Assembly: GCA_021604005.1 (NCBI GenBank)
Contig: BQIV01000026.1
Location: 1-64,000, forward strand
Direction of reading: 5' to 3'
Length of the DNA: 64,000 nucleotides
From: Nitrospirales bacterium
GTDB lineage: Bacteria; Nitrospirota; Nitrospiria; Nitrospirales; UBA8639
Shown: positions 12,068-63,902 of the stretch, piece after piece
Numbering within the stretch: the first letter of the stretch is position 1
How the letters are laid out: every line of letters begins with the position of its first letter
The notes under the pieces: generated by a model
Told to the model about the DNA's origin: nothing
Seen by the model: the letters and a program-made list of their open reading frames with translations, nothing else
Database searches by the model: none
Made by a program: the position numbers and the translations under genes

Positions 12068-12250
12068 TATAGCCGTTTTAGTTATGCCGAATCAGTTACA
12101 CGTCAACCCACTGAATGCTGATTGACCCTTCGTTATTGAACCGTCAATCGTATGTAGATCATCCAGGCGGGCATAACTTTCCTCATGTTCACGTTGTACC
12201 CCGCGGAGTTCGTTGTATTTTCCCGTTTGGAACTTATTGGGATTCGCTAC
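12068..12250 (+). repeat. TATAGC-family interspersed repeat, copy A
   Basis: The longest copy of a repeat family found by eye in this window. It starts TATAGCCGTTTTAG and ends TTGGGATTCGCTACAA. The first part (about 110 bases, containing CTGAATGCTGATT and TTGAACCGTCAATCGT) matches copy C at 25927. The last 55 bases match copy B at 15483 in inverted orientation with about five mismatches. The 3' end of the element supplies the last few codons and stop of the minus-strand gene ending at 12234. Confidence 0.75.
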
Positions 12251-14237: not shown

Positions 14238-14246
14238 TGTTGCCCG

Positions 14247-15413: not shown

Positions 15414-15482
15414 GGCGACCTCCTCATGATGAAATATGATAAGAAGCGCAGGCCCATGGATAAAGCCATTATTTAAAAGGAT

Positions 15483-15576
15483 TATAGCGAATCCCAATAT
15501 GTTCCAAACGGAAAAATACAATGAACTCCGCGCGGTTCAACATTTCAACCAGCGGAAGTTATTTGAAACGGCCATA
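15483..15576 (-). repeat. TATAGC-family interspersed repeat, copy B
   Basis: Inverted copy lying upstream of the patatin gene. Read on the minus strand it begins TATGGCCGTTTCAAATAAC and ends CATATTGGGATTCGCTATAA. It is about the same length as copy D (36712), which matches it over both ends and the CGCGCGG core. The 55 bases at its 3' end match the end of copy A, so copies A and B bracket the patatin/sensor pair as inverted repeats. Confidence 0.75.
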
Positions 15577-15745
15577 GCTATCAGCTCAGATATCCCAACT
15601 TCTCCTCGCCCCCATGGATTGGGGAGACTTGCCTGCGCGCCGAAGCGCTTCGGCGAAGGCGTGGGGTCAGGGTGAGGGGCTTCATCAAAGATTATACGAC
15701 CTACTTAGTATACAAACGTTGTGCCTTGAAAAGAGACTGCCTTGT
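15577..15745. repeat. GC-rich palindromic spacer between the two lipase-sensor pairs
   Basis: The gap between the GAF/TIR-like gene and the patatin gene holds a perfect 18-base palindrome CGCCGAAGCGCTTCGGCG at 15638-15655. It is flanked by CTCGCCCCCATGG on one side and GGGTCAGGGTGAGGGG on the other. This resembles REP-type intergenic elements found in many genomes. It has no U-tract and is not a typical terminator, although it could stabilise mRNA ends. No gene is visible here. Confidence 0.55.
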
Positions 15746-16900
15746 CTATGCCACGCGAGTTCGTTGATGCCTAGCTTCCGACGCTGGCATGATCAGTTCA
15801 TCGAGCCGTTTTTTCAGTATACCCCTGAATTTTCGTACGTTAAGGTTTCCTCGTGTATTGCGGGGGACGAGGATCGTTCGTTCGGGACGCAAATCAAACG
15901 GTGCCGGGGTGCCGCCAGGCTCTCGTATCGGAACCCAATCAGCCGGAAAGTCTACGTTATTGACGCTGCGGCTGTGAAGCATGCCTGCCTCGAAGATGAC
16001 ATTGGGATTATCTTGAAAGGTTCGCCGGCCATTGGTTCCTTGAATTTCTTCAGAAAAATAACAGATGCCGAACCGGCACTTGCTGAGCATCCGGAGCAAG
16101 TGCGTATTGATGTTTCCCGGTTGATGTTCGTCTTTCCAAAAGACCAGTTCAAAGGCATCTTTGTATTCTTCTTGGATCGTTTTCTTGATCATGTCTATCA
16201 CTCGAGAGTCGGCACGATCTGAGGACGCTAAGAAAATTTTGGGTTGCGTCAGTACCGGTAAGGGTTTTTGAAGAAATGTCTGAAGTTGTTTGCATGCCTC
16301 CCGGGTTTGCTCCATGCGTTTTCGAAACTGCAGGTTGGCGATGTAGACGTTGCACATGGCCGTTGCGATGGTCTGAAGTTCGTCCTTGGCCATGCTCGTG
16401 GCTTCTAGGCGCTTAGAGGTTTCAAACGAATGGACTCCATAGTTCATGCCGTCCCGGCGGAGTGGAATGAGGATCGTCGTTTGCAATGGGACATCACGTA
16501 GCTCTTGGTCATTGGTTTTCCAATAGGGAGGAAGATGGGATTCTCCCGACCATAAATCCTGGTAGCGTCGGGACATTCGCAGGTCGGGGTGTTTGCGATC
16601 CAGGCTCACGACCCAAAGCGGCGCGGTTTTTTCGTAAGAGAGACCGGCAAGGCTTGAGCACCGGCCTTTTAGGTCGTGCACAGGAATTGATTGAACTGTT
16701 GAGTTTCTGGCTAGTCCTAAGGGGTAAAGAATTTTTTGACTTGCATGTTCACCTTCAATAAATAAGCGATCAACGTCGATTTCTAACACTTTCTTTGTAT
16801 AATTCAAGACCAGTTCGCGAAATCGTGAAAAGGTAGCATCGTCGATGAGTTCGCAGGAATACGAAAAGTGGAGTAGGGTTTTTCCGAATGTGTAATCCAT
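15746..16900 (-). CDS. GAF-like / TIR-like (PF10137-type) nucleotide-binding protein
   Basis: A 384-residue protein from ATG 16900, which follows GGGGAGC. Residues about 40-195 look GAF-like: LWVVSLDRKHPDL, DLWSG, TTILIPLRRDG, YGVHSFE and a final DELQTIATAM helix. Residues 219-375 match the predicted nucleotide-binding TIR-like family: PKIFLASSDRAD, ELVFWKDEH, FGICYFSEE and DNPNVIFEAGM (297-307). The same N-x-N-x-x-(F/Y)E-x-G core occurs in the sensor at 12234. It starts 19 bases after the DUF2235 hydrolase gene, suggesting an operon and a sensor-effector partnership. Known TIR-like proteins of this kind occur in CBASS-type immunity; the function here is inferred. A longer frame to 17095 overlaps the upstream gene and is rejected as start. 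Confidence 0.75.
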   Translation of the reverse strand: MDYTFGKTLLHFSYSCELIDDATFSRFRELVLNYTKKVLEIDVDRLFIEGEHASQKILYPLGLARNSTVQSIPVHDLKGRCSSLAGLSYEKTAPLWVVSLDRKHPDLRMSRRYQDLWSGESHLPPYWKTNDQELRDVPLQTTILIPLRRDGMNYGVHSFETSKRLEATSMAKDELQTIATAMCNVYIANLQFRKRMEQTREACKQLQTFLQKPLPVLTQPKIFLASSDRADSRVIDMIKKTIQEEYKDAFELVFWKDEHQPGNINTHLLRMLSKCRFGICYFSEEIQGTNGRRTFQDNPNVIFEAGMLHSRSVNNVDFPADWVPIREPGGTPAPFDLRPERTILVPRNTRGNLNVRKFRGILKKRLDELIMPASEARHQRTRVA

Positions 16901-16919
16901 GATTGCTCCCCTTTTTATC

Positions 16920-19265
16920 TCAACCCGAATTGTGTGCCTGTCCTTTGGTTGAACGTGCCAGCCCGGTCGGTGCCGGTATATCAACCGGTTCAATCGTGAT
17001 CCTCGCGTGACCGTGATTGTTCTTGTAAAACATTTGCCATGGTTCTGGGCCAGGCAGAATGGCATCGTTGATGAACAAAAAGAGTTCTCCGTCACGTCGG
17101 GCTTTGAGTTCTGTGGTGAGCGTGGATGTCAGAATAGCGGCGCCATCGGATGGCTTAGGAGATGGAGCTGCCGGATAAAGCGGGTACTCGTCGCTCCCTT
17201 GACTACCAATCCGTGCGATGGGCTTGAACCACGGTTCACCAAGGTGGCGGCGTAAGAGAAGTCCCGCATACATCGAACGTGTCATCTTCTCCCACATAAA
17301 TCCATTCAGGTCTGTTGGAATGCCATTATCATTCCAGGGAGTTTGCTCGTTCATAGAGAGGGTGAGCCGATAGCGTTGGCCTGCCTTGAGCTGAATGCCG
17401 CTGCCCCAGCATAAGGAATTTGTTGAAAACCCCTCTGCGTTAATTTTTTCTGAGGCCATCCACGACTCTTGTGTTTCCTTGCAAACCAACCCACCTGAGT
17501 TCATCATCGAAAATATGATTTGACTGGTACCTTGGAAAATGAGGATCACAGAGGCCAGTCCAGCAGCAAACGGCAGCACCCGTTGTTTCATGAGTTTGAA
17601 AAACGCTTGGTATATCCAGTGCGTTCTAAATCTATAGACGACGCCATCGGGAAGGGGCACCGTAGTTGTTAACGGTTCTGTGGGATGGGTGAATGGCTTC
17701 CACAGGGATCGCATGTGATCCTTGATAGAATCCTGAATGTGGCACCCAATGGAGATAAAGCCGATGAGGAGAAGCACGAGCGCACTGAATGTGCCGGGAT
17801 GGCTTTTAAACGCTTCGAGCCAGGGGGTTAACAGGTCGGGAAGAAAGATGCCAATTCCGGAAATGACGGGGGAAATTGCGCACAGGGCTCCCGTGCAGGC
17901 TTCCGTCGCCGGTCTGTAGAGTGGGAAGGCCAACAGTCCTCCGACGACGAGTACCGAGGCAAAGTAGGCGATGCGCTTCCACCACACCAGGTTCCACACG
18001 GCTTCCTGCTGTTGAGTTCGGGATTGAGCCGTTGAGGCGTGCTCAATCAGCGTCGATGGCGGTTCATCGTGCACGGGTTGATCAATGATACGTCCATCGG
18101 ATTGCACAATGGCATACTTTGCTGGAAGTCCGATGGGCGCATACCCATCGACTCCTGCACGAATTCGTTGGATAACGCTTTCGTGAATTTTCGGACGCGC
18201 AATTCTGATGGGATCATTGGGATCATCATCGTTGTGTGTCAGGCATTCCATCTTCCTCGGCAGGTATCGATACGCTCCACCCAACCCTTGTCTCGCATCG
18301 TAGATTTTTCCTAGAGGATTGACTTTTTCTAGAATCCGTTCATAGTCATGTTTTTTAAACCGAAGGTTTGTTCGTTCAGCTTCCCGCATCATCCATGCAA
18401 GAGAGACGTAGGATAACCCGTCATCCGGGTACCCGCCTCCAACATTTGTATGCGCTCCGGCGAACCAGACTTGCGTCACGCGTTCATCTTCGATGTGTTG
18501 GGTATGGATGCGTCCGTTGTCGGTCTCTTCATGTTCGCTCAGCAGTTGAGGGTGAAAAGAGTTTCGCTCGTCGTCGAGTGCGAGGGCATGACAAGCTCGA
18601 TGCACGTTCTTGTCAAGGATGTGTTTCGGTCGTATTGGAAACACGGCATTCCATGCACGAGTCAATTCATCGATGGGCAACCCGTAGGCCGAAACCCTGT
18701 CCCACAATCCAAGAAAGGTAATTTGAGGTCCGAGTACAGTGTCTGTCGTTGGATATGATTCTCCAAGAGCGTCTGCTGTTGTGCTTAATCCTATGAGCCT
18801 GAATAGAGATTTTAGTTTATTTTTGTAGTGCCCTCGCCGGCACAGGCGTCTGTGTTTGTTGAAGGTATCGGTGGCGAGCTTCTGGAGTTCTCGCGTGTTC
18901 TGAGCGGTCACAAGACCTTGACATCGAACGAGCTCGGACAGCACGCGGATCGTGAAAGCTCCTCGGCTAAAACCAAAACAATAAATCTGATCACCAGTGT
19001 TGTAGTTCCGTGAGAGAAAGGTATAGAGGTCGATCACGTTGCGTTTCAGTCCCCATCCAAAAGCTCCGCCCAGCAGGGCTAGTGGTTTAAACGCCGAAGT
19101 GCCGACGCCATCATCGTAATAGGTAATCTGCGTGGGTGGATCGGAAGGGGAATCATCTGAGCCTGAAAGGTCCAAGGCTTGATAGAGCCTCCAGACGTTG
19201 GTTTTAAAGAGCTTGGCCGAGCTATTCCCGGTTCCGTCTGAGAATAAAACAATGTGCTTGCTCAT
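16920..19265 (-). CDS. DUF2235 alpha/beta hydrolase (Tle1-like) with membrane anchor
   Basis: A 781-residue predicted membrane-bound phospholipase. The N-terminal DUF2235 domain starts VLFSDGTGN and has the nucleophile elbow GFSRG (98-102, S100), an LWD aspartate (D189) and the catalytic histidine in GAHTNVGGGY (H272). This domain is the one found in Tle1-type lipases. After residue 420 come about three hydrophobic segments (431-450, 492-510, 563-586) and a C-terminal soluble region with no domain I recognise. The start is ATG 19265 with GAGGA just upstream; the frame extends 30 codons further but without a better site. No VgrG, PAAR or immunity gene is near, so a secreted T6SS toxin is less likely than an endogenous membrane effector paired with the GAF/TIR-like protein. 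Confidence 0.82.
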   Translation of the reverse strand: MSKHIVLFSDGTGNSSAKLFKTNVWRLYQALDLSGSDDSPSDPPTQITYYDDGVGTSAFKPLALLGGAFGWGLKRNVIDLYTFLSRNYNTGDQIYCFGFSRGAFTIRVLSELVRCQGLVTAQNTRELQKLATDTFNKHRRLCRRGHYKNKLKSLFRLIGLSTTADALGESYPTTDTVLGPQITFLGLWDRVSAYGLPIDELTRAWNAVFPIRPKHILDKNVHRACHALALDDERNSFHPQLLSEHEETDNGRIHTQHIEDERVTQVWFAGAHTNVGGGYPDDGLSYVSLAWMMREAERTNLRFKKHDYERILEKVNPLGKIYDARQGLGGAYRYLPRKMECLTHNDDDPNDPIRIARPKIHESVIQRIRAGVDGYAPIGLPAKYAIVQSDGRIIDQPVHDEPPSTLIEHASTAQSRTQQQEAVWNLVWWKRIAYFASVLVVGGLLAFPLYRPATEACTGALCAISPVISGIGIFLPDLLTPWLEAFKSHPGTFSALVLLLIGFISIGCHIQDSIKDHMRSLWKPFTHPTEPLTTTVPLPDGVVYRFRTHWIYQAFFKLMKQRVLPFAAGLASVILIFQGTSQIIFSMMNSGGLVCKETQESWMASEKINAEGFSTNSLCWGSGIQLKAGQRYRLTLSMNEQTPWNDNGIPTDLNGFMWEKMTRSMYAGLLLRRHLGEPWFKPIARIGSQGSDEYPLYPAAPSPKPSDGAAILTSTLTTELKARRDGELFLFINDAILPGPEPWQMFYKNNHGHARITIEPVDIPAPTGLARSTKGQAHNSG

Positions 19266-19537
19266 GGTTATCCTCGTTCTGTGTCCGTGGTCTGAACATC
19301 CCGCGTGCGTGCCATGTCTTGACAAGTGCAATAAGGATTCCCGCGTGTGTCGCAAGACACGGGAGAAGACTATTTCGAAAAAACTCTTTGAGTTACTGCG
19401 GGATCGGGTGAGAAATGTCGTTAGGTTACGTGTGGTTGCGATAATCCGTTATCGAAAAGGATACATGACGTATCGTTTTTGATAATCCGATAGTGTTGTG
19501 GGTTGAGGTGTGGATCTTTCGAAGATGGCCCCTCTCT

Positions 19538-30755: not shown

Positions 30756-32744
30756 ATGAGTGTTCAGATGCACGCATCTCCATTGGATACATATAAAGAA
30801 CGGCTTTCTCGGCTCCTTCAGGCGTTGGATTCGCAGGACGTCACATTGTCTTCCTCAGTGGAAGCCTCGTTAGCTCTGGCCTGTCAGCAATTAGAGACTG
30901 CCTTAGCGGCGACTCCCCACGGAGATTCCGAACAGGCCGTGCTGCCCCATGTCCCGCTTCATGTCGAGGGAAATGGTTCGTCCTTGCCATTTCAGCCTGT
31001 CCAAGAAATTTTAAACTGTATTCCTGATAGCCATATTGTGACGTCGTCCGATGGTGTCATTCATATGGCGAATCAACAGGCCGCGCGGTTGTTTCAACTT
31101 ACCCAACCTCAATTGATGGGTCGTTCTTTAGCAAGCTTGATGAGTCAGGAGAATTGGGCGAATCTCTTGGAACGGTTAGAGACGTTAAATGGAAACGTGC
31201 AAAACTGGCAAGGAGAGCTGCAGGTAGTTCCCCACTCGCAAGCTCCACGCTCCGTGGTGTGTACGCTTTCGGCTCTGCGGAATACCGACGGACAGTTGGT
31301 TGGTGCGCACTGGCTTCTCTGGGATGTTACTGAACATCGGCATGGGATTATCGCGCAAGAGTTATCCAATGAACTGATTCAATTGCTCCTTTCGGGCATG
31401 ACCGTACGGCAGGCGTTGTCGATTGTGTGTCGCCGGCTAGTTGAAACCTTTGCCTATCCATTTGTGTGGATCGGTACTCAGGAAGCCGGAGGGTCGATGT
31501 GTTCCATCGCATATGACGGCGATTCGAGCGTCTCGTCGGTGCAACGTCTTGAGCAATTCGATGATGCAAGCACGTCGGATAATGCCGTGAGTCATGCCAT
31601 TCAACAGAAGCGCACGCACGTCGTGAAACATGATCAGACGAATGATTCACGAAGTGTGGAATGGCTTCGTGCTGAGGGCTTTCAATCTCAGATTGTTGTG
31701 CCGCTCTGTATCGATGACCAGGTGTTGGGCGTCTTAATGATTTGTTCTCACCAAGCCGATGAGTTTGAGCCAAGTATCGTCAGGTGGTTAGAACAGCTTG
31801 GTGTCCATATGAGTAAAGCGATGTTTGTGGCTCAAAACTATGATCATTTACGCCTGCAGGGTAAAGCGCTGAACTCTGCAGAACATGCCGTCTGTATCAC
31901 CAATCCTGAAGGGACGATTGAGTGGGTGAACGATGCGTATTGCCGTATGAGTGGTTACGAGGTTGGGGAGGTGATCGGAACGGTGCTGCCTTCATCGCAA
32001 GCCAAACCGTTTCGACAGTTATTGAAACGGGCAAGCGAACAAGAATTGCCCGCACAATCTTGGAAGGTCGAATCGACCGCCACGCGAAAGGACGGTCGAG
32101 CGTATACGATGGAGGAGGTGCTGACACCACTTTTGAATGAAGATGGGCGTGTGTCCAATATCGTCGCTATTCTTCAGGATATTACGAGCCGAAAAGAGGC
32201 TGAAACGCAAATCATTCATCGTGTCTATCATGACCCACTGACGGACCTTCCCAATCGCGTCATGTTTCAGGATCGACTTGAACAAGCCTTGGCCCAGGCC
32301 CGAAGGCATCAACGGCTCCTCGCCGTGTTTTTTATTGATCTGGACTGTTTTAAACGTGTCAATGATGAATTTGGACATCGAGCTGGTGATCAGTTACTCA
32401 AAACAGTCGCCGAACGCCTGGAGCGTTGTGTTCGGGCGACGGATACGGTTGCCCGTTTAAGTGGTGATGAATTTACCTTGATTCTGCAAGATCTTGAACA
32501 TGCGGATGACGCTCAGCATGTCGCGCAAAAAATTTTAGATTGTGTCGTCGATCCTATCGCGATTGATGATCATCAGGTACAGGTCCGCACGAGTATCGGG
32601 ATCGCCCTATTTCCAGTCGATGCGGTGGAGCCTGAAGATCTTCTGCGTCAAGCTGATCGTGCAATGTATAAGGCCAAAGAACTTGGCGGGCACGCGTGGG
32701 CATTTTCCTCTGGCGGAGCCAGGTCGTGTGTCCCGGGTGCTTAA
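30756..32744 (+). CDS. PAS-GAF-PAS-GGDEF diguanylate cyclase
   Basis: A 662-residue signalling protein. A first PAS-type domain (about 85-195, DSHIVTSSDGVIHMANQQAA) is followed by a GAF domain (about 205-360, VGVLM-like VLGVLMICSH), a second PAS (about 370-490, GTIEWVNDAYCRMSGYE, then a PAC-like VAILQDITSRKE) and a GGDEF domain. The active-site loop reads SGDEF (569-573), an accepted variant, and an RxxD inhibitory site RATD lies exactly five residues before it (560-563), so feedback inhibition by c-di-GMP is likely. FFIDLDCFKRVND supplies the metal aspartate. No membrane segment is seen. It is the only c-di-GMP synthase in the window and could feed the riboswitch at 54.8 kb. Confidence 0.92.
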   Translation: MSVQMHASPLDTYKERLSRLLQALDSQDVTLSSSVEASLALACQQLETALAATPHGDSEQAVLPHVPLHVEGNGSSLPFQPVQEILNCIPDSHIVTSSDGVIHMANQQAARLFQLTQPQLMGRSLASLMSQENWANLLERLETLNGNVQNWQGELQVVPHSQAPRSVVCTLSALRNTDGQLVGAHWLLWDVTEHRHGIIAQELSNELIQLLLSGMTVRQALSIVCRRLVETFAYPFVWIGTQEAGGSMCSIAYDGDSSVSSVQRLEQFDDASTSDNAVSHAIQQKRTHVVKHDQTNDSRSVEWLRAEGFQSQIVVPLCIDDQVLGVLMICSHQADEFEPSIVRWLEQLGVHMSKAMFVAQNYDHLRLQGKALNSAEHAVCITNPEGTIEWVNDAYCRMSGYEVGEVIGTVLPSSQAKPFRQLLKRASEQELPAQSWKVESTATRKDGRAYTMEEVLTPLLNEDGRVSNIVAILQDITSRKEAETQIIHRVYHDPLTDLPNRVMFQDRLEQALAQARRHQRLLAVFFIDLDCFKRVNDEFGHRAGDQLLKTVAERLERCVRATDTVARLSGDEFTLILQDLEHADDAQHVAQKILDCVVDPIAIDDHQVQVRTSIGIALFPVDAVEPEDLLRQADRAMYKAKELGGHAWAFSSGGARSCVPGA

Positions 32745-54537: not shown

Positions 54538-54761
54538 GTCTGTGATGTCTGAATTTTAGTAGCGGAAAGATGGCTGCAGGGTTTTCCTCTTCTTTATGAG
54601 AAGATTCGGTAAAATATTCGACTTCTTGAGTCTTTTCGTGATCCAACGGCTGTTTTTAGGTTCAATGAGAGGATCATGAAAAACACGAAGAGACAGAAAG
54701 TTGTACTCAAGTTTTAGTATGGAGGTCCGATAAGGCTCATCATATTCGATTACTAAGAACT

Positions 54762-54848
54762 CTCTCTCGAAAAGGCATACCAGTCGTAAGGCTGGGACGC
54801 AACGTTACGGATCGGTAAGAAGACCGAGAGCCGGACTGCCGAAGGAGA
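54762..54848 (+). promoter_or_regulatory. c-di-GMP-I (GEMM-I) riboswitch aptamer
   Basis: The segment carries the GEMM-I core: GGCATACC, a short stem capped by a GTAA tetraloop (CGTAAG), GGCTGGGACGCAACG, then a second helix ATCGGTAAG/GACCGAGAGCC and a closing GGACTGCCG. The order and spacing match the known class I aptamer, with A-to-T at one position of the usual GCAAACC and ACG for AAG after GCA. P1 can form between CTCTCTC and the downstream GAAGGAGA. A hairpin GTTCCT/AGGAAC follows at 54874-54896 and could be part of the expression platform. It lies on the plus strand, about 590 bases before the first Flp pilin gene. Confidence 0.82.
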
Positions 54849-55433
54849 AAGCCAGGCATCTTGTCGGGGTAGAGTTCCTAAGAAGCATGAAGGAACCTGT
54901 TGTATGCGGACAAGATTCTGGGTTTTCCCATATTGTGCCCTCCTCTCGGATACCCCATACGTCAGACAGTCATTACAAGGAAAACGGTTGAACCCCCGGT
55001 CAGTTCGCGCTCATTGTTTACTTCGTCGTGCCGTCCGGAATCATACTCGTACGAGTTTCAAGTGGACGCAGATCTGTTTGGCCTATCAAGCAGGCAACTC
55101 TTTTCTGGAACCGTTAGGTGAATATAACAATCGAGTGGTGAGCTCACCCGCCGAATGTATAAGACAATGCGAAACGAGATGTCTTGTCCGGTAGGTGGAC
55201 GTGCATGATAGGGAAATGGCTGCAGCAGGTAAAAGAAATGTGGCGTGTGTGGCATCACATGTTGATACAAATGTATACGTATGGTGTTCGGCATAGAGAA
55301 ATGCATAATTCCGCAAAGATGAATGTTGGGCTTGTGCTGAGCGCAAGAGCTATTCAGAAGGTCAGCGGTGGGGAATATTGGGGCATACCATCGAAGCTGA
55401 CATCTATTCAATATGCCCGAAAGGAGAGCTGCA
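54849..55433. other. Long untranslated leader between riboswitch and pilin
   Basis: About 585 bases with no convincing gene. Frames of 73-96 codons exist but lack ribosome sites, and one overlaps the pilin start. The hairpin at 54874-54896 is the only structure seen. It may be a long regulated 5' leader of the pilin transcript. Confidence 0.45.
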
Positions 55434-55613
55434 ATGACAAGTCAAGTTATGCAATTTTTTCAGGATGAAGAAGGGGCGACCGCGTTAGAGTACGGATTGT
55501 TGGCGGCGCTCATTGCTGCGGTTATCATTGGTGCTGTGACCACGCTTGGGAATGTGGTCAGCACGACATTTAATAATATCGCGACCTCAATGAAGAATAA
55601 GACAGGCAGCTGA
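55434..55613 (+). CDS. flp: Flp-type pilin 1
   Basis: A 59-residue prepilin for a Tad (Flp) pilus. The short leader ends in QDEEG and processing by the CpaA-type peptidase is expected before ATALEYGLLAALIAAVII, with the conserved Glu and Tyr at positions 5 and 6 of the mature protein. A hydrophilic tail TTFNNIATSMKNKTGS follows. The start ATG 55434 has AAAGGAG at a proper distance; the frame opens 7 codons earlier without support. It is the first gene of the pilus locus after the riboswitch leader. A hairpin follows immediately. Confidence 0.93.
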   Translation: MTSQVMQFFQDEEGATALEYGLLAALIAAVIIGAVTTLGNVVSTTFNNIATSMKNKTGS

Positions 55614-55621
55614 TCAGTTCG

Positions 55622-55643
55622 AAATGATGCTCAGCATCATTTT
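55622..55643 (+). terminator. Hairpin after pilin 1
   Basis: AAATGATGC pairs with GCATCATTT around a TCA loop, followed by TTGTTG. It lies 8 bases after the pilin stop. It may attenuate readthrough or protect the abundant pilin mRNA. A second, longer GC-rich hairpin (CCCCGACCTT / AAGGTCGGGG, 55667-55699) follows but has no T-tract, so it may act as a stabilising stem. Confidence 0.55.
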
Positions 55644-55750
55644 GTTGTGATTGAAAAGGTTATTTTCCCCCGACCTTCTCTTTGTGGACAAGGTCGGGGA
55701 GAAAATATGACCGATTCCAATCTCATGTGTTTGTGTGAAGGAGCAGATTG

Positions 55751-55942
55751 ATGTTGACTAATTGGACAACGGTTTGTCGTTCGTTAATCCTAGAAGAAGA
55801 GGGAGCGACTGCGCTTGAATATGGGCTATTGGGTGCTCTGATTGCCGCAGTCATCGTAGGTGCTGTATCCACTCTTGGAGAAGTGCTCAGTACAACATTC
55901 AACAATGTTGCCGCTTCAATGAAAAACGTCTCTAATCCTTAA
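55751..55942 (+). CDS. Flp-type pilin 2
   Basis: A second 63-residue Flp prepilin, very similar to the first: leader ending LEEEG, then ATALEYGLLGALIAAVIVGAV (given in part) and a tail TTFNNVAASMKNVSNP. The ATG 55751 is preceded by GAAGGAG. Two tandem pilins are common in Tad loci; they may be major and minor subunits or alternates. Their divergence is mostly in the leaders, with LL-to-LLG and TT-to-ST substitutions in the helix, so a recent duplication is likely. Confidence 0.92.
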   Translation: MLTNWTTVCRSLILEEEGATALEYGLLGALIAAVIVGAVSTLGEVLSTTFNNVAASMKNVSNP

Positions 55943-56264: not shown

Positions 56265-56795
56265 ATGAATCATCTCAGGGTTCCGAAATTTTTTTCAAAC
56301 AAGACATTGCGTAATGCTCGTGGGAATACCATGACAGAAGTTGGATTACTCTTATTACCATTTCTCTTACTCTTGTCTTCAGTCTTTGAATTTGGTTGGT
56401 ACTATTTCCATGAACATACGTTGCAGCATGCGACACGCGAAGGGATGCGATTGGCATTAGTTGGTGGGATTCTGCATGACGAAGACGGCAATCCTCTCAG
56501 TCGGGAAGAGGCGATTATCGCCACGATTCAGAAGAATGCCTCTTGGGCCATGACGATTAAGGAAGAAGATATTGCAATTTTTAAGGTAGGAAACAATTAC
56601 CAGAACCCTGAAGGGTGGGAAACCGCAGCCCCAAATGCTGGGAATCCTGCAGACTATATGCGGGTGGTCGTGGATTATGAACATACATTTTTGACCCCGT
56701 TTGTCGGAAAGTTTTTCTCAGACGAAGGGTCGGCCCCTATGCGAGCGCAAGCCACGTACCGCAATGAACTCTACGATATCCAAACGGAGGCCTAG
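56265..56795 (+). CDS. TadE-like pseudopilin
   Basis: A 176-residue protein. Its N terminus is basic, then the pseudopilin-like segment MTEVGLLLLPFLLLLSSVFEFG forms a membrane helix (given in part), with the conserved Glu of TadE-type N termini. The remainder is periplasmic and polar. TadE proteins are processed by the prepilin peptidase and serve as minor components of Flp pili. Preceded by GGAGG. The next TadE-like gene starts 2 bases after its stop. Confidence 0.85.
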   Translation: MNHLRVPKFFSNKTLRNARGNTMTEVGLLLLPFLLLLSSVFEFGWYYFHEHTLQHATREGMRLALVGGILHDEDGNPLSREEAIIATIQKNASWAMTIKEEDIAIFKVGNNYQNPEGWETAAPNAGNPADYMRVVVDYEHTFLTPFVGKFFSDEGSAPMRAQATYRNELYDIQTEA

Positions 56796-56797
56796 TT

Positions 56798-57493
56798 ATG
56801 GGAAAACAGATTCTACGATCAGAAAAAGGTATGGCGAGTGTCGAGTTTGCCGGTGTGGCAGTGGTCCTGATGGCATTAGCCTTTGGAATTGTTGAATTTG
56901 GCTCTCTCATTCGTGCGCAGGCCGTGGTGACAAACGTGACGCGAGAGGGTGGAAGTTTAGCGTCTCGTGATCTAAAAAATGGCGAAGCCCTGTTGACGGT
57001 TCTTGAACAGTCGACATGGCCACTGAATTTTGGATGTCCACTGAATGATGAAGGGCAGCCGGAAGCCAATTGTGATCAGAGTGCGCTTGATAGAAAATTT
57101 AAGCTGTACATCACGAAGATCAATGCCGGATCAAGTCAATCTCCAAGTCCCACCTGTGAGGCATCTCTTGAAAGCGGAACGTTGACAGGGACGGGCATCT
57201 CATCGCCGAATGAAGATTCGCACTGTGGTTTGACTCCGGAATTGTGGAAGACGTTAGAATATAATGAGAATTATAGCCATTCCGGGTTGGGGACTTCCTT
57301 ACTCTCTCAATTAACCGTGGTCAAGGTCTATTATAACCATCATCCAATCACGCCATTAGCCACCCTGCTAAAGACGGCTCCCTATTTGGGTGACGGAAAC
57401 GCCCGAATCTTAAATTTTAGTAGTACGCAACCTGACAATCCCGAGATCGGTAGTGAGGATTCATTTCTCGTGGGAAGCAAGGCGATTTTTTGA
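56798..57493 (+). CDS. TadE/TadF-like pseudopilin
   Basis: A 231-residue paralogue of the upstream protein: short basic N terminus, SEKGMASVEFAGVAVVLMAL as the hydrophobic helix with conserved Glu (VEF), then REGGSLASRD and a periplasmic domain with four Cys residues (GCPLN, NCDQ, TCEA, HCGL) that may form disulfides. It begins 2 bases after the TadE stop, so is cotranscribed and probably coupled. It could be called TadF or TadG-like; length and order favour a minor pseudopilin. Confidence 0.82.
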   Translation: MGKQILRSEKGMASVEFAGVAVVLMALAFGIVEFGSLIRAQAVVTNVTREGGSLASRDLKNGEALLTVLEQSTWPLNFGCPLNDEGQPEANCDQSALDRKFKLYITKINAGSSQSPSPTCEASLESGTLTGTGISSPNEDSHCGLTPELWKTLEYNENYSHSGLGTSLLSQLTVVKVYYNHHPITPLATLLKTAPYLGDGNARILNFSSTQPDNPEIGSEDSFLVGSKAIF

Positions 57494-57606
57494 GGTCATG
57501 TGTGAATCGAAAGCCTTAAGCGGTGTAACAGGCATGTCGAATTCTTCCCGATTTCTCGTGTCTGAACCGTGAAGTGCAATGAGCAATGATAAGGAGACGT
57601 TCTTGT

Positions 57607-59046
57607 ATGAAATATATCTATTCACGATCCATGTATTCCGCAAAAGATCACAATACTTCTAAGCCTGGGCTGTGTAATCAACGTGGTATGTTTGCATTGG
57701 CGACGGCATTAGCGCTTGTCTCGCTGTTTGGGTTTGTCGCATTAGGTATCGAAGTGGGAAAATGGTATATCGTCCGCGCTGAACTGGCAAAATCAGTCGA
57801 TGCCGCCTCGTTGGTCGGAGCCAAAAATATCTCTAATCCTTGGCTGATCGCGCATTTCCCAGAAGCCAGTACTCAAGAGGAAGGCATAAGGGAGCTTGTG
57901 ACGTTAGTGGGCGAAGCGAACTTCACGCCGGGATTTTTTGGCGCTGGGGCTCCAACTATCGAAATGACAGAGGATTTAGCGAATGGGAAAGTGATCGTCT
58001 CGAGTCAAACTGATGTGACGAATTACGCCGCACGCGTGCTTGAGACGTCACAGAATGCAGGGCAGTTCGATACGACTCAGGTGTCGACGATTGGTGGTGC
58101 ACAGAAGCGCGATGTTGAAATCATGTTGGTTTTAGATCGGTCGGGTTCGATGTCACAGGAAATGGATGACCTCAAGGACGCGGCAAAGAGTTTTGTCGAT
58201 TACTTTCAGGATACCGAGGACGACGATAAAATTGGGCTCATTAGCTATTCAACGGCTGTCAGCGTGGATGAACCTTTGTCGACGAATTTTGTCGATGCGA
58301 TCAAAGTGAAAATTGATGCGATGTCCGCTGTCGGGTGGACGAATATGGAAGATGCGTTGGACCAAGCCGATGGCCCATCAGGGTTCTCGGATCAATCGGA
58401 GGTTCCTGGGGATCAACGAGTTCAGCAATTTCTGGTCTTTTTCACCGATGGAATTCCAACGGCATTCCGTGCAACCTATGATCCCGATACCGCGCCGTAT
58501 CAGCTCTTTACCAGGGGGGGGATCAATAAAGTCAATACAACAACTGATGAGTCTGATGTAGTGATTGCGGCGTCAAATAGCTCAAATGCACGACTGTACG
58601 ATCCATATGACGGCACTGAACTTCCGAATCTATCGGGGAGTTACGCCAAGCAATATCATACTGGTGATGGCTTGCCGAGTACATCATCGGCCTGTGGATA
58701 TTACACGATGAAATGGTGGATTTTGCAGGACCCAGACTATGGAATGTATTACCCTGGGTCACCCCTTTCCGGATATGAGGAAGAACAGTGCGCCATTCCC
58801 AGATCCAAGATGGTGAAATATGTCGAGGATCAGGCCAAACAGATGGCGATTGAACATGCCGAAGCGCTCAAAGCCAAAGGCGTCAAGGTATACACGATCG
58901 GCTTGGGTGGAAGCCTCAATACGTCCCAATTACAAAGCATGTCGAGCGGGGAAGCATTTTATTATCCGGCGTTCACGTCCGATCAGTTAGAGGAAGTATT
59001 TCAGAATATTGCGAAAAACATTAAGCTGCGATTAGTCCAAGTCTAA
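57607..59046 (+). CDS. TadG-like protein with VWA domain
   Basis: A 479-residue protein. After a 25-residue leader comes the hydrophobic anchor ATALALVSLFGFVALGIEVG (a TadE/G-type helix), then a soluble region and a von Willebrand A domain (about 170 to the end) with the metal-site DRSGSM (MIDAS DxSxS), GWTNMEDAL and FFTDGIP. The domain is interrupted by an extra loop of about 100 residues rich in Gly, Ser and Tyr. TadG is a structural/adhesive component of Tad pili in the envelope. The start at 57607 is set by AAGGAG 10 bases upstream; a longer frame to 57586 lacks support. A strong terminator follows. Confidence 0.87.
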   Translation: MKYIYSRSMYSAKDHNTSKPGLCNQRGMFALATALALVSLFGFVALGIEVGKWYIVRAELAKSVDAASLVGAKNISNPWLIAHFPEASTQEEGIRELVTLVGEANFTPGFFGAGAPTIEMTEDLANGKVIVSSQTDVTNYAARVLETSQNAGQFDTTQVSTIGGAQKRDVEIMLVLDRSGSMSQEMDDLKDAAKSFVDYFQDTEDDDKIGLISYSTAVSVDEPLSTNFVDAIKVKIDAMSAVGWTNMEDALDQADGPSGFSDQSEVPGDQRVQQFLVFFTDGIPTAFRATYDPDTAPYQLFTRGGINKVNTTTDESDVVIAASNSSNARLYDPYDGTELPNLSGSYAKQYHTGDGLPSTSSACGYYTMKWWILQDPDYGMYYPGSPLSGYEEEQCAIPRSKMVKYVEDQAKQMAIEHAEALKAKGVKVYTIGLGGSLNTSQLQSMSSGEAFYYPAFTSDQLEEVFQNIAKNIKLRLVQV

Positions 59047-59080
59047 GTCTTGAGACCACAATCTTGGGCTTGCCGGATAG

Positions 59081-59118
59081 GTGGCCTCGCAAGGATGTCT
59101 TGCGAGGCCACTTTTTTT
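59081..59118 (+). terminator. Strong Rho-independent terminator
   Basis: A perfect 13-bp stem, GTGGCCTCGCAAG (59081-59093) with CTTGCGAGGCCAC (59099-59111), 5-base loop GATGT, then seven Ts. It lies 35 bases after the tadG-like gene and separates the pilin/pseudopilin unit from the assembly-machine unit. Confidence 0.95.
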
Positions 59119-59276
59119 GTCTGCAGAGAGTTACAGATTTTTTCACATTGAACCGAAGAACCGGGTAATGCTCGTGATCCTTGCCTCTTCTGTGCTGTTG
59201 TCTTTGTCTGATGAGAGCAGAGGCATCCATCGCGGCCTGGGGAATGTTGAGGGTAATTTTAATTTGTTGTGGTGAT

Positions 59277-59810
59277 ATGTCCTCTATCCTTTTGATTGTT
59301 GTCCTGTCCTCTGCGCTGGTATGGGCAGCCATTACGGATGTCCGTTGGGGAAAAATTCCCAATGTCATCACCTTACCCCTAGCAGGCCTCGGCCTTGCGA
59401 TCCATGTAGGTGCTAACGGCTATCAAGGCTTATTATTTAGTCTCCAAGGGTTCGGTCTTGGGTTTGGGTTGCTGATTATTTTTTATGCGCTAGGTGGGAT
59501 GGGAGCCGGCGATGTGAAGCTCTTTGGTGCGGTTGGTGCCATTATCGGTCCGAATGATGTATTTGTGGCTTTTCTGATCACGGCGTGTCTCGGCGGGTTG
59601 TATGCCATTGGTCTTATGGTATTCACCTGGGGGCTATCCAGTACGGCGGAACGTGTCAAAGTCATATTGACCACGTGGTTGGTGGCTCGAATCTTTACGA
59701 CTCCACCTCCGATGGATCACCGGCAGCCCAAATTGCGCTATGGGTTGGTCATCGGGTTGGGAACGTTATGTTCGCAAGCTTGGCGATGGCTGGCTCCCAT
59801 ACAACTGTGA
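59277..59810 (+). CDS. cpaA: Prepilin peptidase CpaA/TadV
   Basis: A24-type aspartyl peptidase processing Flp prepilins and pseudopilins in the inner membrane. The 177-residue form has about five membrane segments, the first catalytic aspartate in ITDVRWGKIPNVI and the second in the GxGD motif GMGAGDVKLFGAVG. The small size and lack of a methyltransferase domain are typical of CpaA. The frame is open further upstream (59181); ATG 59277 starts at the natural membrane segment (MSSILLIVV) but has a weak ribosome site, while ATG 59244 is an alternative. Confidence 0.9.
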   Translation: MSSILLIVVLSSALVWAAITDVRWGKIPNVITLPLAGLGLAIHVGANGYQGLLFSLQGFGLGFGLLIIFYALGGMGAGDVKLFGAVGAIIGPNDVFVAFLITACLGGLYAIGLMVFTWGLSSTAERVKVILTTWLVARIFTTPPPMDHRQPKLRYGLVIGLGTLCSQAWRWLAPIQL

Positions 59811-59927
59811 TGACACATTTGAGGGAAGGCCTTAAGAAAAGTTTTGGTTGACCGATGTAAAGCAATAGACGAACTGACGGTAGGTGTGAGCAGTATATTT
59901 TCTTAAAGATTGAACGAGGTACATACA

Positions 59928-60752
59928 ATGTTTCAAAACCGGCCTGTCCTGTTTATGGGGCTAGCAGTCGGCATAGCCTTAGTGACGACAATCCTGATCT
60001 ACAATTGGCTGCAGCAACAGAAGCAGCAATCCCCGCAAGTCGTCGAACAAAAAATGGTGACTGTCGAAGGGATTCCTATTGCGGTTGCAGGTGCAGATAT
60101 GGCCTGGGGCACGCCAATTACCAAGGAAATGATTCGAGAGGTTCCTTTTCCTCAGGAACACCTTCCCGATGGACATTTTAAGAAACTGGAAGATTTACAA
60201 GGTCGTGTATTGTTGAGTGCTGTCAAACGTCATGAACCCATTCTTGAATCAAAATTGGCGCCGATTGATATTAAGAATGGCGGGGTTATTGCCGTTCTTG
60301 ATCCTGAAAAGCGTGCGATGGCTGTAAAAGTCAATCAAGTCGTAGCTCTTCCCGGATTCATCAAACCTGGAGATCGCGTCGATATTATGGTGACGATGTC
60401 GGGGAGTGGAAAAGAAAAAATCACTAAAACCGTCCTGGAAAATATGCATGTGCTGGCGATTGGGACGCAACTGGAACGTCACCGAGCTGACGGGAAGCCC
60501 ACGCCGGTGAAAATTATTACGTTTGAGGTGAGTTTAGAGGAAGCCGAAATGCTTGCGATGGCGTCGAACGGTGGTCAATTGCGGTTTGCGCTACGCAGTC
60601 CACTCAATACGGAGTTGAAAAAAACACGCGGAGCCACAATGCCGAATCTTCGCGCGATGTTTCAGGCTGCTCCTCCGAAGCGGAAAGCGAAACGAACAAG
60701 AAACCGCGTCGAAGTGATAAAAGGCAATTCAAAAAGTGTTGTGAAGTTTTAG
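59928..60752 (+). CDS. cpaB: Pilus assembly protein CpaB/RcpC
   Basis: A 274-residue periplasmic protein with an N-terminal anchor (FMGLAVGIALVTTILIYNWL). It then has a SAF-like domain (IPIAVAGADMAWGTPITKEM), LQGRVLLSAVKRHEPIL and the conserved AVKVNQVVALPGFIKPGDRVDIMV segment that marks CpaB/RcpC. The C terminus is strongly basic (KRKAKRTRNR). CpaB is thought to help the secretin and to link it to the inner membrane. ATG 59928 follows ACGAGG; the frame runs 6 codons further to a TTG. Confidence 0.92.
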   Translation: MFQNRPVLFMGLAVGIALVTTILIYNWLQQQKQQSPQVVEQKMVTVEGIPIAVAGADMAWGTPITKEMIREVPFPQEHLPDGHFKKLEDLQGRVLLSAVKRHEPILESKLAPIDIKNGGVIAVLDPEKRAMAVKVNQVVALPGFIKPGDRVDIMVTMSGSGKEKITKTVLENMHVLAIGTQLERHRADGKPTPVKIITFEVSLEEAEMLAMASNGGQLRFALRSPLNTELKKTRGATMPNLRAMFQAAPPKRKAKRTRNRVEVIKGNSKSVVKF

Positions 60753-60816
60753 TCCTAGACGGATTGGGTCCGTCTAGTGAGTGTTTGGTTCTTGCGATAT
60801 TGTAGAAGGAGTCAGT

Positions 60817-62268
60817 ATGTCACAAAGAAAGATCCACGGGTTGAGCGTACCGCTGTTGCTTGCCGGAGTTGCATGGTTCATTGTCAGTGGGTCTTCTCTT
60901 GCCTATGCCGAAGGGCTCACCTATCAAGCTGTGGAGACGAAAACACCGCAGACATTACAGGTAGGCCTAGGGTCCTCCATTGTGATTGATAGTGTCAGCC
61001 AATTTTCACGGACATCCGTGGCGAATCCGAAGGTGGCAGATACGCTTGTCATCTCCCCCAAACAAATCTATGTGACGGGTAAGGCTATTGGGACCACCAC
61101 CCTGACCCTGTGGGGAAAGAATGGTGCGGTTAGTACGATATTGCAGATTCTCGTGACGCCGGATTTATCAAAATTGAAAGCGCAATTACATCAGGTTTTC
61201 CCTGGAGAGACAAAAGTCCAAATCACTGGAGGTCACGATAATATTTCCCTGTCCGGTACGGTCTCAACGGCCGAACAGTTAACGAAGATCGTCGAAATGG
61301 CGGAACCCTATGCTCCTGGAAAAATCATGAATCTCTTGAATGTTGGTGGTGTACAGCAGGTCATGCTTGAAGTGCACATTGCAGAAATGAATCGCGGCAT
61401 GACTCGCCGGTTAGGGATCAATTATTCCAGGTTGGGTGAAAGTTTCTTTTTTGGAGAGCTCAATGATTTAAGTGAGATATCTCTTGCCGATGGGGTGTTT
61501 ACGTTTTTGCAATCAGCAGCGGTCAATGCCACATTCGGCATTCCCTTTGGCGATGATATCTATATGATATTTCTCGATTTCTTAAAGCAGCATAATTTAT
61601 CAAAAGTATTGGCTGAGCCAACGTTGGTTGCGATCAGTGGACAAGAAGCGACATTTCTGGCTGGAGGAGAATTCCCCATTCCGGTTCCGCAAGCGCTAGG
61701 TGTCACGACGATTAAGTTTAAGGATTTCGGCGTGAAGCTGGGTTTTAGTCCGACCGTCTTGAACAATAATAAAATTGCGTTGAAAATTTCCCCTGAAGTG
61801 TCGGAGTTAGATTTTGCGAACGGTGTGAATTCTGCCGGCTTTACGATTCCGGCGATTACGACACGAAAAGTTCAGACGGTGTTGGAGCTCGATGATGGGC
61901 AAAGTTTTGTGATTGCCGGGTTACTCCAGAATAATATTCGAGAGACCGTAGCGAAGTATCCCATTCTAGGAGATATCCCGGTGTTAGGTGCACTATTTCG
62001 TAGTACGTCCTTTCAGAAAAGTGAAACAGAACTCGTTGTGATTGTTACACCAAGACTTGTGAAGCCTATTGACCTGGCGAAACAACCGCTTCCCACGGAC
62101 GATTATTTAGAGCCCAATGATTTTGAGTTGATGTTATTGGGGTATCTTGAAGGTATTCCACAAGTGGAAGATTCGAATGGCCTGATGTCGAGTCGCGGGT
62201 ATGCTGCACGGGGGTTGGCGTGGCAGGGTGGTGGGCTTGAGGGATCATTTGGGCATTTGGCACCGTAG
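60817..62268 (+). CDS. cpaC: Tad secretin CpaC/RcpA
   Basis: Outer-membrane secretin of the Flp pilus, 483 residues. It has a signal peptide ending AYAEG, an N-terminal pilus-specific domain (GSSIVIDSVSQFSRTSVANP), a BON-like middle (ITGGHDNISLSGTV) and the secretin domain (about 270-455) with LAEPTLVAISGQEATFLAGG, the barrel signature SFVIAGLLQNN and VTPRLVKP. ATG 60817 with AAGGAG upstream is preferred over the GTG of the longer frame at 60781. It follows cpaB after 64 bases. Confidence 0.93.
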   Translation: MSQRKIHGLSVPLLLAGVAWFIVSGSSLAYAEGLTYQAVETKTPQTLQVGLGSSIVIDSVSQFSRTSVANPKVADTLVISPKQIYVTGKAIGTTTLTLWGKNGAVSTILQILVTPDLSKLKAQLHQVFPGETKVQITGGHDNISLSGTVSTAEQLTKIVEMAEPYAPGKIMNLLNVGGVQQVMLEVHIAEMNRGMTRRLGINYSRLGESFFFGELNDLSEISLADGVFTFLQSAAVNATFGIPFGDDIYMIFLDFLKQHNLSKVLAEPTLVAISGQEATFLAGGEFPIPVPQALGVTTIKFKDFGVKLGFSPTVLNNNKIALKISPEVSELDFANGVNSAGFTIPAITTRKVQTVLELDDGQSFVIAGLLQNNIRETVAKYPILGDIPVLGALFRSTSFQKSETELVVIVTPRLVKPIDLAKQPLPTDDYLEPNDFELMLLGYLEGIPQVEDSNGLMSSRGYAARGLAWQGGGLEGSFGHLAP

Positions 62269-62292
62269 GTGAGAAACAAAAGAGGAAATTTC

Positions 62293-62658
62293 ATGAGGAA
62301 TGTGTTCGAACAACAAATTCACCGTCTTGTATGTCTCGTCGTACTGGTTGTGGGAATTTCGGGATGCCAGTTGTGGCCAATCATGTCGGATGACGATGGT
62401 CGAAAACTTCGAGACATTGGAAAAGTTGATCAAGTGATGCATCCGTATGCTCCCCATCCTGTTCACTTAAGTGAGCATTATGGACATGCGTTTCATGCTG
62501 CGAGAGATAACCAAATTTTGAATCCGCAAGCGTCGGAGAATCTTGACCTGGTCATAGGAAAAGATGGGATGGCAACGTACAAGTCAATTGAACTCTATCG
62601 TAAAAGTTACTCTAGTCCTCCATTTGGTTCGAACTCATCAAGTGGAGGGAAAAAATGA
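62293..62658 (+). CDS. Short CpaD-like lipoprotein
   Basis: A 121-residue lipoprotein. The signal peptide ends in the lipobox VGISGC, followed by a hydrophilic domain with HYGHAFHAARDNQILNPQA and a C-terminal GMATYKSIELYRKSY. The combination of F-x-x-A-x-x-NQ...NP-A and a terminal (Y/I)..YR segment resembles the last part of CpaD/TadB-like pilus lipoproteins, which are longer. Position between cpaC and cpaE matches cpaD. Start ATG 62293 has AGAGGA upstream; a longer frame opens at 62269. Stop overlaps the cpaE start by 4 bases. Confidence 0.65.
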   Translation: MRNVFEQQIHRLVCLVVLVVGISGCQLWPIMSDDDGRKLRDIGKVDQVMHPYAPHPVHLSEHYGHAFHAARDNQILNPQASENLDLVIGKDGMATYKSIELYRKSYSSPPFGSNSSSGGKK

Positions 62659-63902
62659 GTGGGTCAAGTTGGAAGCCGACACGTGTCGGGGCGACAGGCA
62701 CGGACGGTAATGCAGCGGGGAAGGTGGTTGAGCTGGCGATTACGACGGCAGAGGTCAAAAAGGCCATCGAAGATCAGATTCGCGCGGATGGCGAGTTTAC
62801 ATTCAAACAACCCGGTGAAACACAGATCCCTCATCTATTGATTTTGGAAATTGATGAGGACCCAGAAAAAACGTTTTCGCTCGTTAAGACAGTATTGGGT
62901 TCCGCCAAAGGAACCGAAATCTTTCTAACGTCGGCCAAAACCGACTCGGCCATATTACTCGAAGCGATGCGGGCTGGAATGAAAGAGTTTCTCCCTCAAC
63001 CAATTCAACCTGACGAGGTCACGGCAGCCTTAGAGCGTTTTAAGGTTCGGAATCGTGAGGTGGTGTACGAAAGTAAAAAGCCGGCAGGAAAAGTGATCGC
63101 GTTGTTTGGAGGCAAAGGCGGGACTGGCACGACGAGTGTGGCCGTCAACCTTGCCGCGAGTCTGCATTTGGGAAAACACAAACCGGCTGTTGTGTTGGTA
63201 GATGTGAATCAGCATGGTGGCGATATTCCCTTGTACCTAGATTTACCGACGACGCATAGTTTTCGAGACATTGCGGCGGATCTGACTCGGGTAGATTTAG
63301 CCTTTCTTGCCAGTGTGTTAACCAAACATGAATCGGGAGTACATGTTCTCCCCTCCGGCTATGATGATTTGAGTGCGGGACGACTCAATCCCGATTGTAT
63401 CGAACCGACGATCAAGCTGCTTCAATCGATGTTTGAATTTGTGGTGATTGACTGTGGTCATGTTTTAGACCTCACGACTAAAAAAGCGTTAGAGCTGTCG
63501 TCAAGTATTATGGTGGTCTCGAGTTTAATGGTTCCTGCCGTACATCGAACCAAGCGCATTCTTGAACTATTGCGGGGGTCGGGTGTGCCACAGGATAAAA
63601 TCGATCTGGTCATTACCCGGTATCTTCCGCATGAAAAAGATGTCTTGAATGAAACGAATGATATCTTGAAGCAAAAAGCGAATTGGTTGTTGCCGAATGA
63701 CTATGCAGCTTCGAGTAATGCGATTAATAGTGGAAAGCCCGTTGTGATGATCGCCCCTCGCTCCTCCTTGACGAGGACATACCGGCAGCTTGCCGATTCG
63801 TTCCTCGGACAGACGTCAGTGCCACAAACAGGTTCGTTCTGGGGAAGTTTGATGAAATCCGTAAAAGGGAAACGGACTTCGGAGAGTGCGGCCCCAGCCT
63901 AA
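62655..63902 (+). CDS. cpaE: CpaE/TadZ-like pilus localisation ATPase
   Basis: A 415-residue cytoplasmic protein with an N-terminal atypical receiver-like domain (about 25-130, ending DSAILLEAMRAGMKEFLPQP) lacking an obvious phosphoacceptor site, and a C-terminal ParA/MinD-type ATPase with FGGKGGTGTTSVAVNLA as a deviant Walker A, VVLVDVNQHGGD and VVIDCGH. CpaE/TadZ places the Tad machine in the cell. The ATG overlaps the preceding stop (ATGA). The Walker A Lys-to-Thr pattern (GTTS) is usual for CpaE, so it is not a defect. Confidence 0.93.
   Translation: MSGSSWKPTRVGATGTDGNAAGKVVELAITTAEVKKAIEDQIRADGEFTFKQPGETQIPHLLILEIDEDPEKTFSLVKTVLGSAKGTEIFLTSAKTDSAILLEAMRAGMKEFLPQPIQPDEVTAALERFKVRNREVVYESKKPAGKVIALFGGKGGTGTTSVAVNLAASLHLGKHKPAVVLVDVNQHGGDIPLYLDLPTTHSFRDIAADLTRVDLAFLASVLTKHESGVHVLPSGYDDLSAGRLNPDCIEPTIKLLQSMFEFVVIDCGHVLDLTTKKALELSSSIMVVSSLMVPAVHRTKRILELLRGSGVPQDKIDLVITRYLPHEKDVLNETNDILKQKANWLLPNDYAASSNAINSGKPVVMIAPRSSLTRTYRQLADSFLGQTSVPQTGSFWGSLMKSVKGKRTSESAAPA

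Follow-up and report, generated by a model that had tools for sequence, protein, structure and literature searches.

A c-di-GMP-I riboswitch aptamer upstream of Tad/Flp pilin genes in Nitrospirales, in a predicted composite leader with a sigma28-type promoter motif, a small ORF and a candidate pseudoknot

Results

A c-di-GMP-I aptamer precedes a Tad/Flp pilus operon

The window analysed here, a stretch of 64,000 nucleotides from a Nitrospirales bacterium, carries a Tad/Flp pilus locus on its plus strand. The first two genes, flp1 (55434..55613) and flp2 (55751..55942), encode Flp pilins, confirmed by matches to Pfam PF04964 of 58.5 and 47.6 bits, respectively. The start of flp1 is most likely the ATG at 55434, and sequence and alignment place its Shine-Dalgarno (SD) sequence at 55420..55426. 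The operon continues at 56265..63902 with genes for TadE, a TadE-like protein, a VWA/Tad protein, a prepilin peptidase, RcpC/CpaB, the RcpA secretin, a small ORF and a TadZ-like ATPase. Pfam matches support the two TadE proteins, the VWA/Tad protein, the prepilin peptidase, the secretin and the TadZ-like ATPase, as well as RcpC/CpaB, and the locus contains the Tad/Flp pilus gene set (Flp, TadE/G, prepilin peptidase, CpaB, RcpA and TadZ). Relatives share this gene content, as judged by tblastn. The gene upstream of the leader encodes a glycosyltransferase on the minus strand and is divergent, so that there is no read-through from it into the leader. Within the gap between flp1 and flp2, we observed two strong stem-loops at 55620-55708; the sequence from 55614 to 55747 folds with a z-score of -5.6, none of 200 shuffled sequences being as stable. 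By these fold predictions, the stem-loops could limit or stabilise transcription past flp1.

A cmscan search of the whole window against Rfam gave a single match above a gathering threshold, to the c-di-GMP-I riboswitch (GEMM-I; RF01051), at 54764-54843 on the plus strand. The score was 58.9 bits against a gathering threshold of 35 (E = 5.8e-9), and the match covers the full length of the model (positions 1-87). A sequence-only reading of this DNA had placed a GEMM-I aptamer on the plus strand upstream of two Flp pilin genes and named an RF01051 covariance search as the check; by that search, the aptamer is genuine. In the RF01051 alignment, the ligand-contact positions of the aptamer are G, A and C; we take these to be G20, A47 and C92 in Vc2 numbering. 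The aptamer has all three ligand-contact bases of canonical c-di-GMP-I RNAs and is predicted to bind the ligand. The P1b loop is GUAA, a GNRA tetraloop. Its receptor, which is common in the class though not essential, falls at model positions that the alignment shows as deletions.

Two related classes were rejected. The c-di-GMP-I-GGC variant (RF03167) scored 51.9 bits, below its own gathering threshold of 59, and its consensus has G in place of A47, where the aptamer has A. The GEMM-Ib/cGAMP class, which has A at position 20, is ruled out by the G at that position. The window contains one aptamer and no tandem arrangement; a search of positions 54930-55440 for a remnant of a second aptamer gave no match at E up to 10. 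Elsewhere, the window's genome brings the number of RF01051 matches above threshold to five.

The position of the aptamer is conserved among relatives

We compared the locus across 59 genomes, incomplete assemblies from mostly uncultured organisms, with the window's own genome designated G000; sequence L103 was left out of the comparison. GEMM-I aptamers are present in 30 of the 59 genomes and Flp pilins in 23. In 19 of these 23, a GEMM-I lies upstream of flp1 on the same strand, with the nearest aptamer 122-637 nt before the pilin motif. Two of the remaining four (G017 and G030) have flp at the start of a contig, so that an upstream aptamer cannot be judged there, and the other two (G039 and G053) are distant genomes from other families that have no GEMM-I ahead of flp. 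The leaders fall into three layouts: a distal aptamer only (n = 6; G000-G004 and G008), both a distal and a proximal aptamer (n = 3; G006, G009 and G015), and a proximal aptamer only (n = 10), with the proximal aptamer ~125 nt before the Flp motif in ten relatives. We refer to the distal and proximal aptamers as aptamers 1 and 2. Many such genomes carry additional flp genes elsewhere that lack GEMM-I (e.g. G000:C75).

These comparisons indicate that the aptamer is not a chance neighbour of the pilin genes. A chance association with no regulatory role is extremely improbable, being at odds both with the placement in 19 of 23 genomes and with the repeated pairing of GEMM-I with a promoter motif, described below.

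A sigma28-type promoter motif lies immediately upstream of the aptamer

A sigma28 (FliA)-type promoter motif, TCAAGTTT-N11-TCCGATAA, is located at 54707..54733 on the plus strand and ends 31 nt upstream of the aptamer. In a relaxed scan of both strands of the window, this was the sole match scoring 15 of 16, the runner-up scoring 13. Each of the 19 flp leaders contains a match scoring 12 of 16 or better, and in 17 the score is 14 or better; the weakest is that of G015. Using search strings composed after the leaders had been inspected, we found eight matches to the exact pattern TCAAGTTTN{10,13}CCGATAA in 48 family genomes, with a GEMM-I following closely in six cases; the reversed control gave one match. 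A looser pattern gave 28 matches in the five genomes of the window's genus and two matches for its reversed control; nine of the 28 lie at most 150 nt upstream of a GEMM-I, versus 0.003 expected. By these counts, pairing of the promoter motif with a riboswitch is recurrent in the genus. Further GEMM-I aptamers directly behind sigma28-type promoter motifs were observed at G000:C25:9023-9152, G003:C152:993-1121, G004:C10:23792-23921 and G002:C24:76797-76958.

In all five genomes of the genus, the main flagellin gene has TCAAGT...TCCGATA ~133 nt upstream. Together with the counts above, this identifies the motif as the flagellar promoter type of the organism. FliA itself is encoded in the genome (TIGR02479, 200.9 bits; cutoff 189.6), and its gene is preceded by its own GEMM-I. 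We also observed, at L003:1501-1595 on contig C8 of G000, that the GEMM-I ahead of the FliA-family sigma factor gene is followed directly by a hairpin and a T-run. c-di-GMP may control fliA as well as the FliA-driven pilus leader. The motif upstream of the pilin locus, which the sequence-only reading had not mentioned, likely supplies the transcript start for the leader, with dependence on FliA being a prediction.

A FliA-driven RNA could instead be a stand-alone riboswitch RNA, terminating short of flp1 and acting as a c-di-GMP sink, with the pilin genes left to a promoter of their own. Bdellovibrio makes a c-di-GMP riboswitch RNA, merRNA, in its FliA-dominated attack phase (PMC3627812), and the long distance to flp1 in the window would fit this explanation. 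However, ten relatives have the aptamer ~125 nt before the Flp motif, with a promoter-like motif in the same short leader; the order and strand of aptamer and flp are conserved; and there is no match to a sigma70-like promoter on the plus strand between the aptamer and flp1. We therefore consider a stand-alone RNA very unlikely, and favour a leader that continues into the pilin genes.

A small ORF under coding selection occupies the leader

The sequence-only reading had found no supportable gene between the aptamer and flp1. This did not hold: a conserved small ORF lies there, although it is split between frames in the window. The 5' part (54904..55194, plus strand; 96 aa, MRTRFW...) has an N-terminus, M.[TS]RFW, common to G001-G004. 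The 3' part lies in another frame (55184..55468, plus strand; first listed start, TTG at 55184) and includes, at 55241-55267, the sequence WRVWHHMLI, corresponding to the ORF's conserved motif, W..EH..[ILM]T. The pattern W...H..[ILM][TVI], composed after the leaders had been inspected, is present in all 19 leaders; across the six reading frames of the window (128,000 codon positions), WRVWHHMLI is its single match. The frame split suggests that any step relying on the ORF may be broken in this organism, or that the assembly contains an indel.

Substitution patterns point clearly to coding selection on the small ORF. Across thirteen representatives excluding the window, the mean BLOSUM score was 2.22 in frame versus 0.16 and -0.06 for the other two frames, and changes fell mostly at third codon positions; adding the window gave 2.0. 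The ORF belongs to no Pfam family detectable from the 5' part in the window or the G001 ORF (both at E up to 0.01) or from five others (E up to 1).

The ORF is closely interwoven with the promoter motif and with aptamer 2. In nine of the ten proximal-only leaders, its ATG is 6 nt past the -10 box, such that its message would be nearly leaderless from the presumed start site. It spans the proximal aptamer in 12 of the 13 leaders that have one, including all ten proximal-only relatives, where the aptamer lies inside the ORF; the G006 ORF ends where the aptamer begins. The W codon of the motif, here W..EHL.[IM]T, is 56 nt before aptamer 2 in 12 of these 13 leaders and 57 nt before it in the other. 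In the speculative layered gate discussed below, this spacing would put a paused ribosome at the edge of the aptamer.

Strands flanking aptamer 1 could switch access to the small ORF

Two complementary strands flank the aptamer in the window: strand a (GAACTCT; 54757..54763) and strand b (AGAGTTC; 54871..54877), both on the plus strand. Strand b can pair either with strand a or with the region around the SD of the small ORF; the SD (AAGGAA) and ATG of this ORF, with their site and the SD conserved among relatives, lie at 54890..54906. All nine aptamer-1 leaders have GAACTC[TC] ahead of the aptamer and GAGTTC 27-30 nt beyond it, and GAGTTC with its neighbours can alternatively pair with the SD region (strand c). 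Six of the seven a:b pairs are invariant; the seventh covaries (C-G, U-A, U-G), with a mismatch in G002. A pattern combining strand a with the aptamer gave eight matches in 48 family genomes, at flp loci only. Blocking strand b in fold predictions raised the mean unpaired probability of the small ORF SD in eight of the nine leaders, with no gain in G006. Predicted energies are -7.1 to -9.2 kcal/mol for a:b and -8.8 to -19.8 kcal/mol for b:c, a:b being the weaker in all nine leaders; hence, switching would require either folding kinetics or the ligand to drive it. Because strand a adjoins P1, the ligand would be expected to favour a:b. Together, these sequence features speak for a switch that acts on translation of the small ORF.

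In the predicted fold, a long, weakly terminator-like hairpin (54844..54929, plus strand) with UUUU at its end encloses the SD and start of the small ORF and competes with P1 for the 3' strand of that helix; the fold z-score of the whole stretch is -1.81. This hairpin could be an intrinsic terminator, with c-di-GMP setting read-through into the operon, in either direction. Such attenuation is rather unlikely: there are just four U residues, paired within the predicted stem; a consensus scan found no terminator at the hairpin; and four relatives (G001, G006, G009 and G015) keep the ORF SD and start in the hairpin without a U-run. We rejected an intrinsic terminator as the general platform, since it is not conserved among relatives, and retain the translational switch. 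The distance from the end of the aptamer to the flp1 ATG is 590 nt, as the sequence-only reading had reported in calling the expression platform unusual. The distance stands, but the platform is not remote, since the switching strands directly flank the aptamer and the ORF and a pseudoknot fill the 590 nt.

A candidate pseudoknot motif precedes flp1

Immediately upstream of flp1, the leader contains a predicted H-type pseudoknot (55361..55418, plus strand). Stem A pairs 55366-55371 with 55388-55393 (outer pairs, 55361-55365 with 55397-55401). Stem B pairs 55381-55386 with 55413-55418, such that GGGC in the loop of stem A pairs with GCCC adjoining the flp1 SD, and stem B ends ~3 nt from the SD. 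In 22 of 24 leaders, at most nine of 200 shuffled sequences reached the score of the pseudoknot; the exceptions were G006 (16) and G002 (112), the pseudoknot being absent in G002. Sequence L120 is incomplete, and its best fold is not the pseudoknot motif. We aligned 21 sequences (alignment A2), omitting G002, L120 and G018, a near copy of G012. In this alignment, 92.2% of cells were paired, falling to 30-41% when the partner strand was slid by 1-3 columns. Changes on both sides of a pair occurred in 29 cells, compared with 10.6 (sd 2.9) in shuffles, and none of 500 shuffles reached 29.

A model of the pseudoknot (R1) gave 29 strong matches (at least 29.7 bits) in 25 genomes, all from the window's family, although 21 of the 29 are its own training sequences or resemble them; the next match scored 25.6 bits. 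Inspection covered the strong matches other than G068:C387. The match in the window (55358-55436) scored 75.7 bits, the window sequence being part of the model. We rejected an extension of the motif beyond the family: the five weak matches inspected (L218-L222) lack a Flp motif. The R1 matches include second flp loci at G003:C23 and G004:C261, contigs without any RF01051 match. At another second flp locus among the matches, L216 (G030:C32), the aptamer has decayed and the pilin gene is degenerate, and the pseudoknot is well kept. Its presence at flp loci without an intact aptamer indicates an independent function for the pseudoknot at pilin genes. We regard the pilin-leader pseudoknot as a candidate new RNA motif supported by covariation.

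Leaders with a proximal aptamer have a further helix, P0'. Of the 21 proximal-aptamer leaders examined, 20 have an 8-nt strand ahead of the aptamer that pairs with a strand 13-14 nt beyond it; the other, L216, with its decayed aptamer, was left out of the count. In all, 155 of 160 cells pair, with nine both-side changes versus 2.0 in shuffles, a value reached by none of 2000. An alternative pairing of P0' with stem B was rejected: by inspection, without a count, the two helices vary separately in L136 and L109.

P0' around the aptamer abuts stem A in the proximal-aptamer genomes. This contact, together with the nearness of stem B to the SD, would suit a translational gate at flp1 in which the pseudoknot serves the aptamer or aptamers as expression platform and the small ORF is a by-product. 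Persistence of the pseudoknot without an adjoining aptamer, in the window's genus and at G003:C23 and G004:C261, argues against such a gate, as does coding selection on the small ORF, and we consider it unlikely. We continue to favour control through the small ORF.

Other features of the window

The PAS-GAF-PAS-GGDEF protein reported previously is indeed present, at 30756-32744, with the signature SGDEF and the inhibitory-site motif RATD five residues upstream. c-di-GMP can probably be made in this organism; nothing ties the protein to the flp leader. We also observed a minus-strand cluster at 12234-19355 that encodes a TPR-sensor protein, a patatin-like phospholipase, a CAP12/Pycsar TIR-domain protein and a Tle1-like phospholipase, and resembles an anti-phage or effector island.

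Discussion

Comparison across relatives indicates that the leader is a conserved composite of a sigma28-type promoter motif, an aptamer with flanking strands, a small ORF and a pseudoknot before the flp1 SD. These elements are very probably real and conserved together. Given that the aptamer is genuine and that its placement is kept in 19 of 23 genomes, c-di-GMP control of the pilus is a sound proposal.

We propose that FliA, made in swimming cells, would start the transcript ~20 nt upstream of the aptamer. Without ligand, strand b would pair with the SD of the small ORF, leaving the ORF untranslated. With c-di-GMP bound, P1 would form and the adjoining strand a would capture strand b, allowing translation of the ORF. 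This translation would protect the long leader, for example against Rho, and would move ribosomes along it towards the pseudoknot next to the flp1 SD, such that pilin synthesis would be licensed by c-di-GMP. We assign a probability of about 0.5 to this explanation as a whole, namely that the Tad/Flp leader is transcribed with FliA, begins with a c-di-GMP-I riboswitch and works as proposed. Its parts differ in strength: the aptamer probably controls the pilins in cis; the odds are about even that c-di-GMP turns the pilins on; and action through the small ORF is more tentative, falling somewhat short of even odds. A layered gate is a speculative and rather improbable extension: pilin output would be set jointly by the flagellar sigma factor, by a single aptamer or a pair of them, by a small ORF whose peptide motif resembles an arrest sequence, and by a new class of pseudoknot. 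In tandem relatives, aptamer 1 would gate ribosome entry to the ORF, and the ribosomes that enter would go on into aptamer 2.

Tad pili serve in sensing surfaces and in holding on to them. The arrangement suggests a link between pilus production and the change from swimming to sticking: a leader combining FliA dependence with a c-di-GMP sensor would let swimming cells poise the pilus message and release it as c-di-GMP rises. For Nitrospirales, in which genetic tools are scarce, this amounts to a concrete and testable scheme for choosing between swimming and sticking, and it offers a natural example of aptamers lying within an upstream ORF that is translated.

The riboswitch class is known; the target and leader architecture were not found in print. 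Among open-licence papers, to the extent that their text was available, we found none that joins a c-di-GMP riboswitch to Tad/Flp genes; the original GEMM paper (10.1093/nar/gkm487) may mention such a link. Like other RF01051 riboswitches, the aptamer scores over threshold and keeps the ligand-contact bases and the GNRA loop; by contrast, its target is Tad/Flp, its tetraloop receptor is deleted, and it is separated from that target by a small ORF and a pseudoknot. Tandem c-di-GMP riboswitches (PMC12452182) have two complete aptamers in series, as do relatives G006, G009 and G015, whereas the window has one aptamer, and the small ORF of G009 and G015 contains the second of the two. merRNA is likewise a c-di-GMP riboswitch RNA linked to FliA, being expressed in the FliA-dominated phase, but PMC3627812 describes it as a non-coding RNA with no conserved downstream ORF. 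The closest parallel for the promoter is the FliA-controlled TAD operon of Bdellovibrio, where, according to PMC5430801, sigma28 transcription of Tad pilins was shown experimentally in a heterologous system. A sigma28-type promoter at Tad pilins is thus common to both, that of the window being known from its sequence; the text of that paper does not contain the word 'riboswitch', whereas the window joins such a promoter to a c-di-GMP riboswitch.
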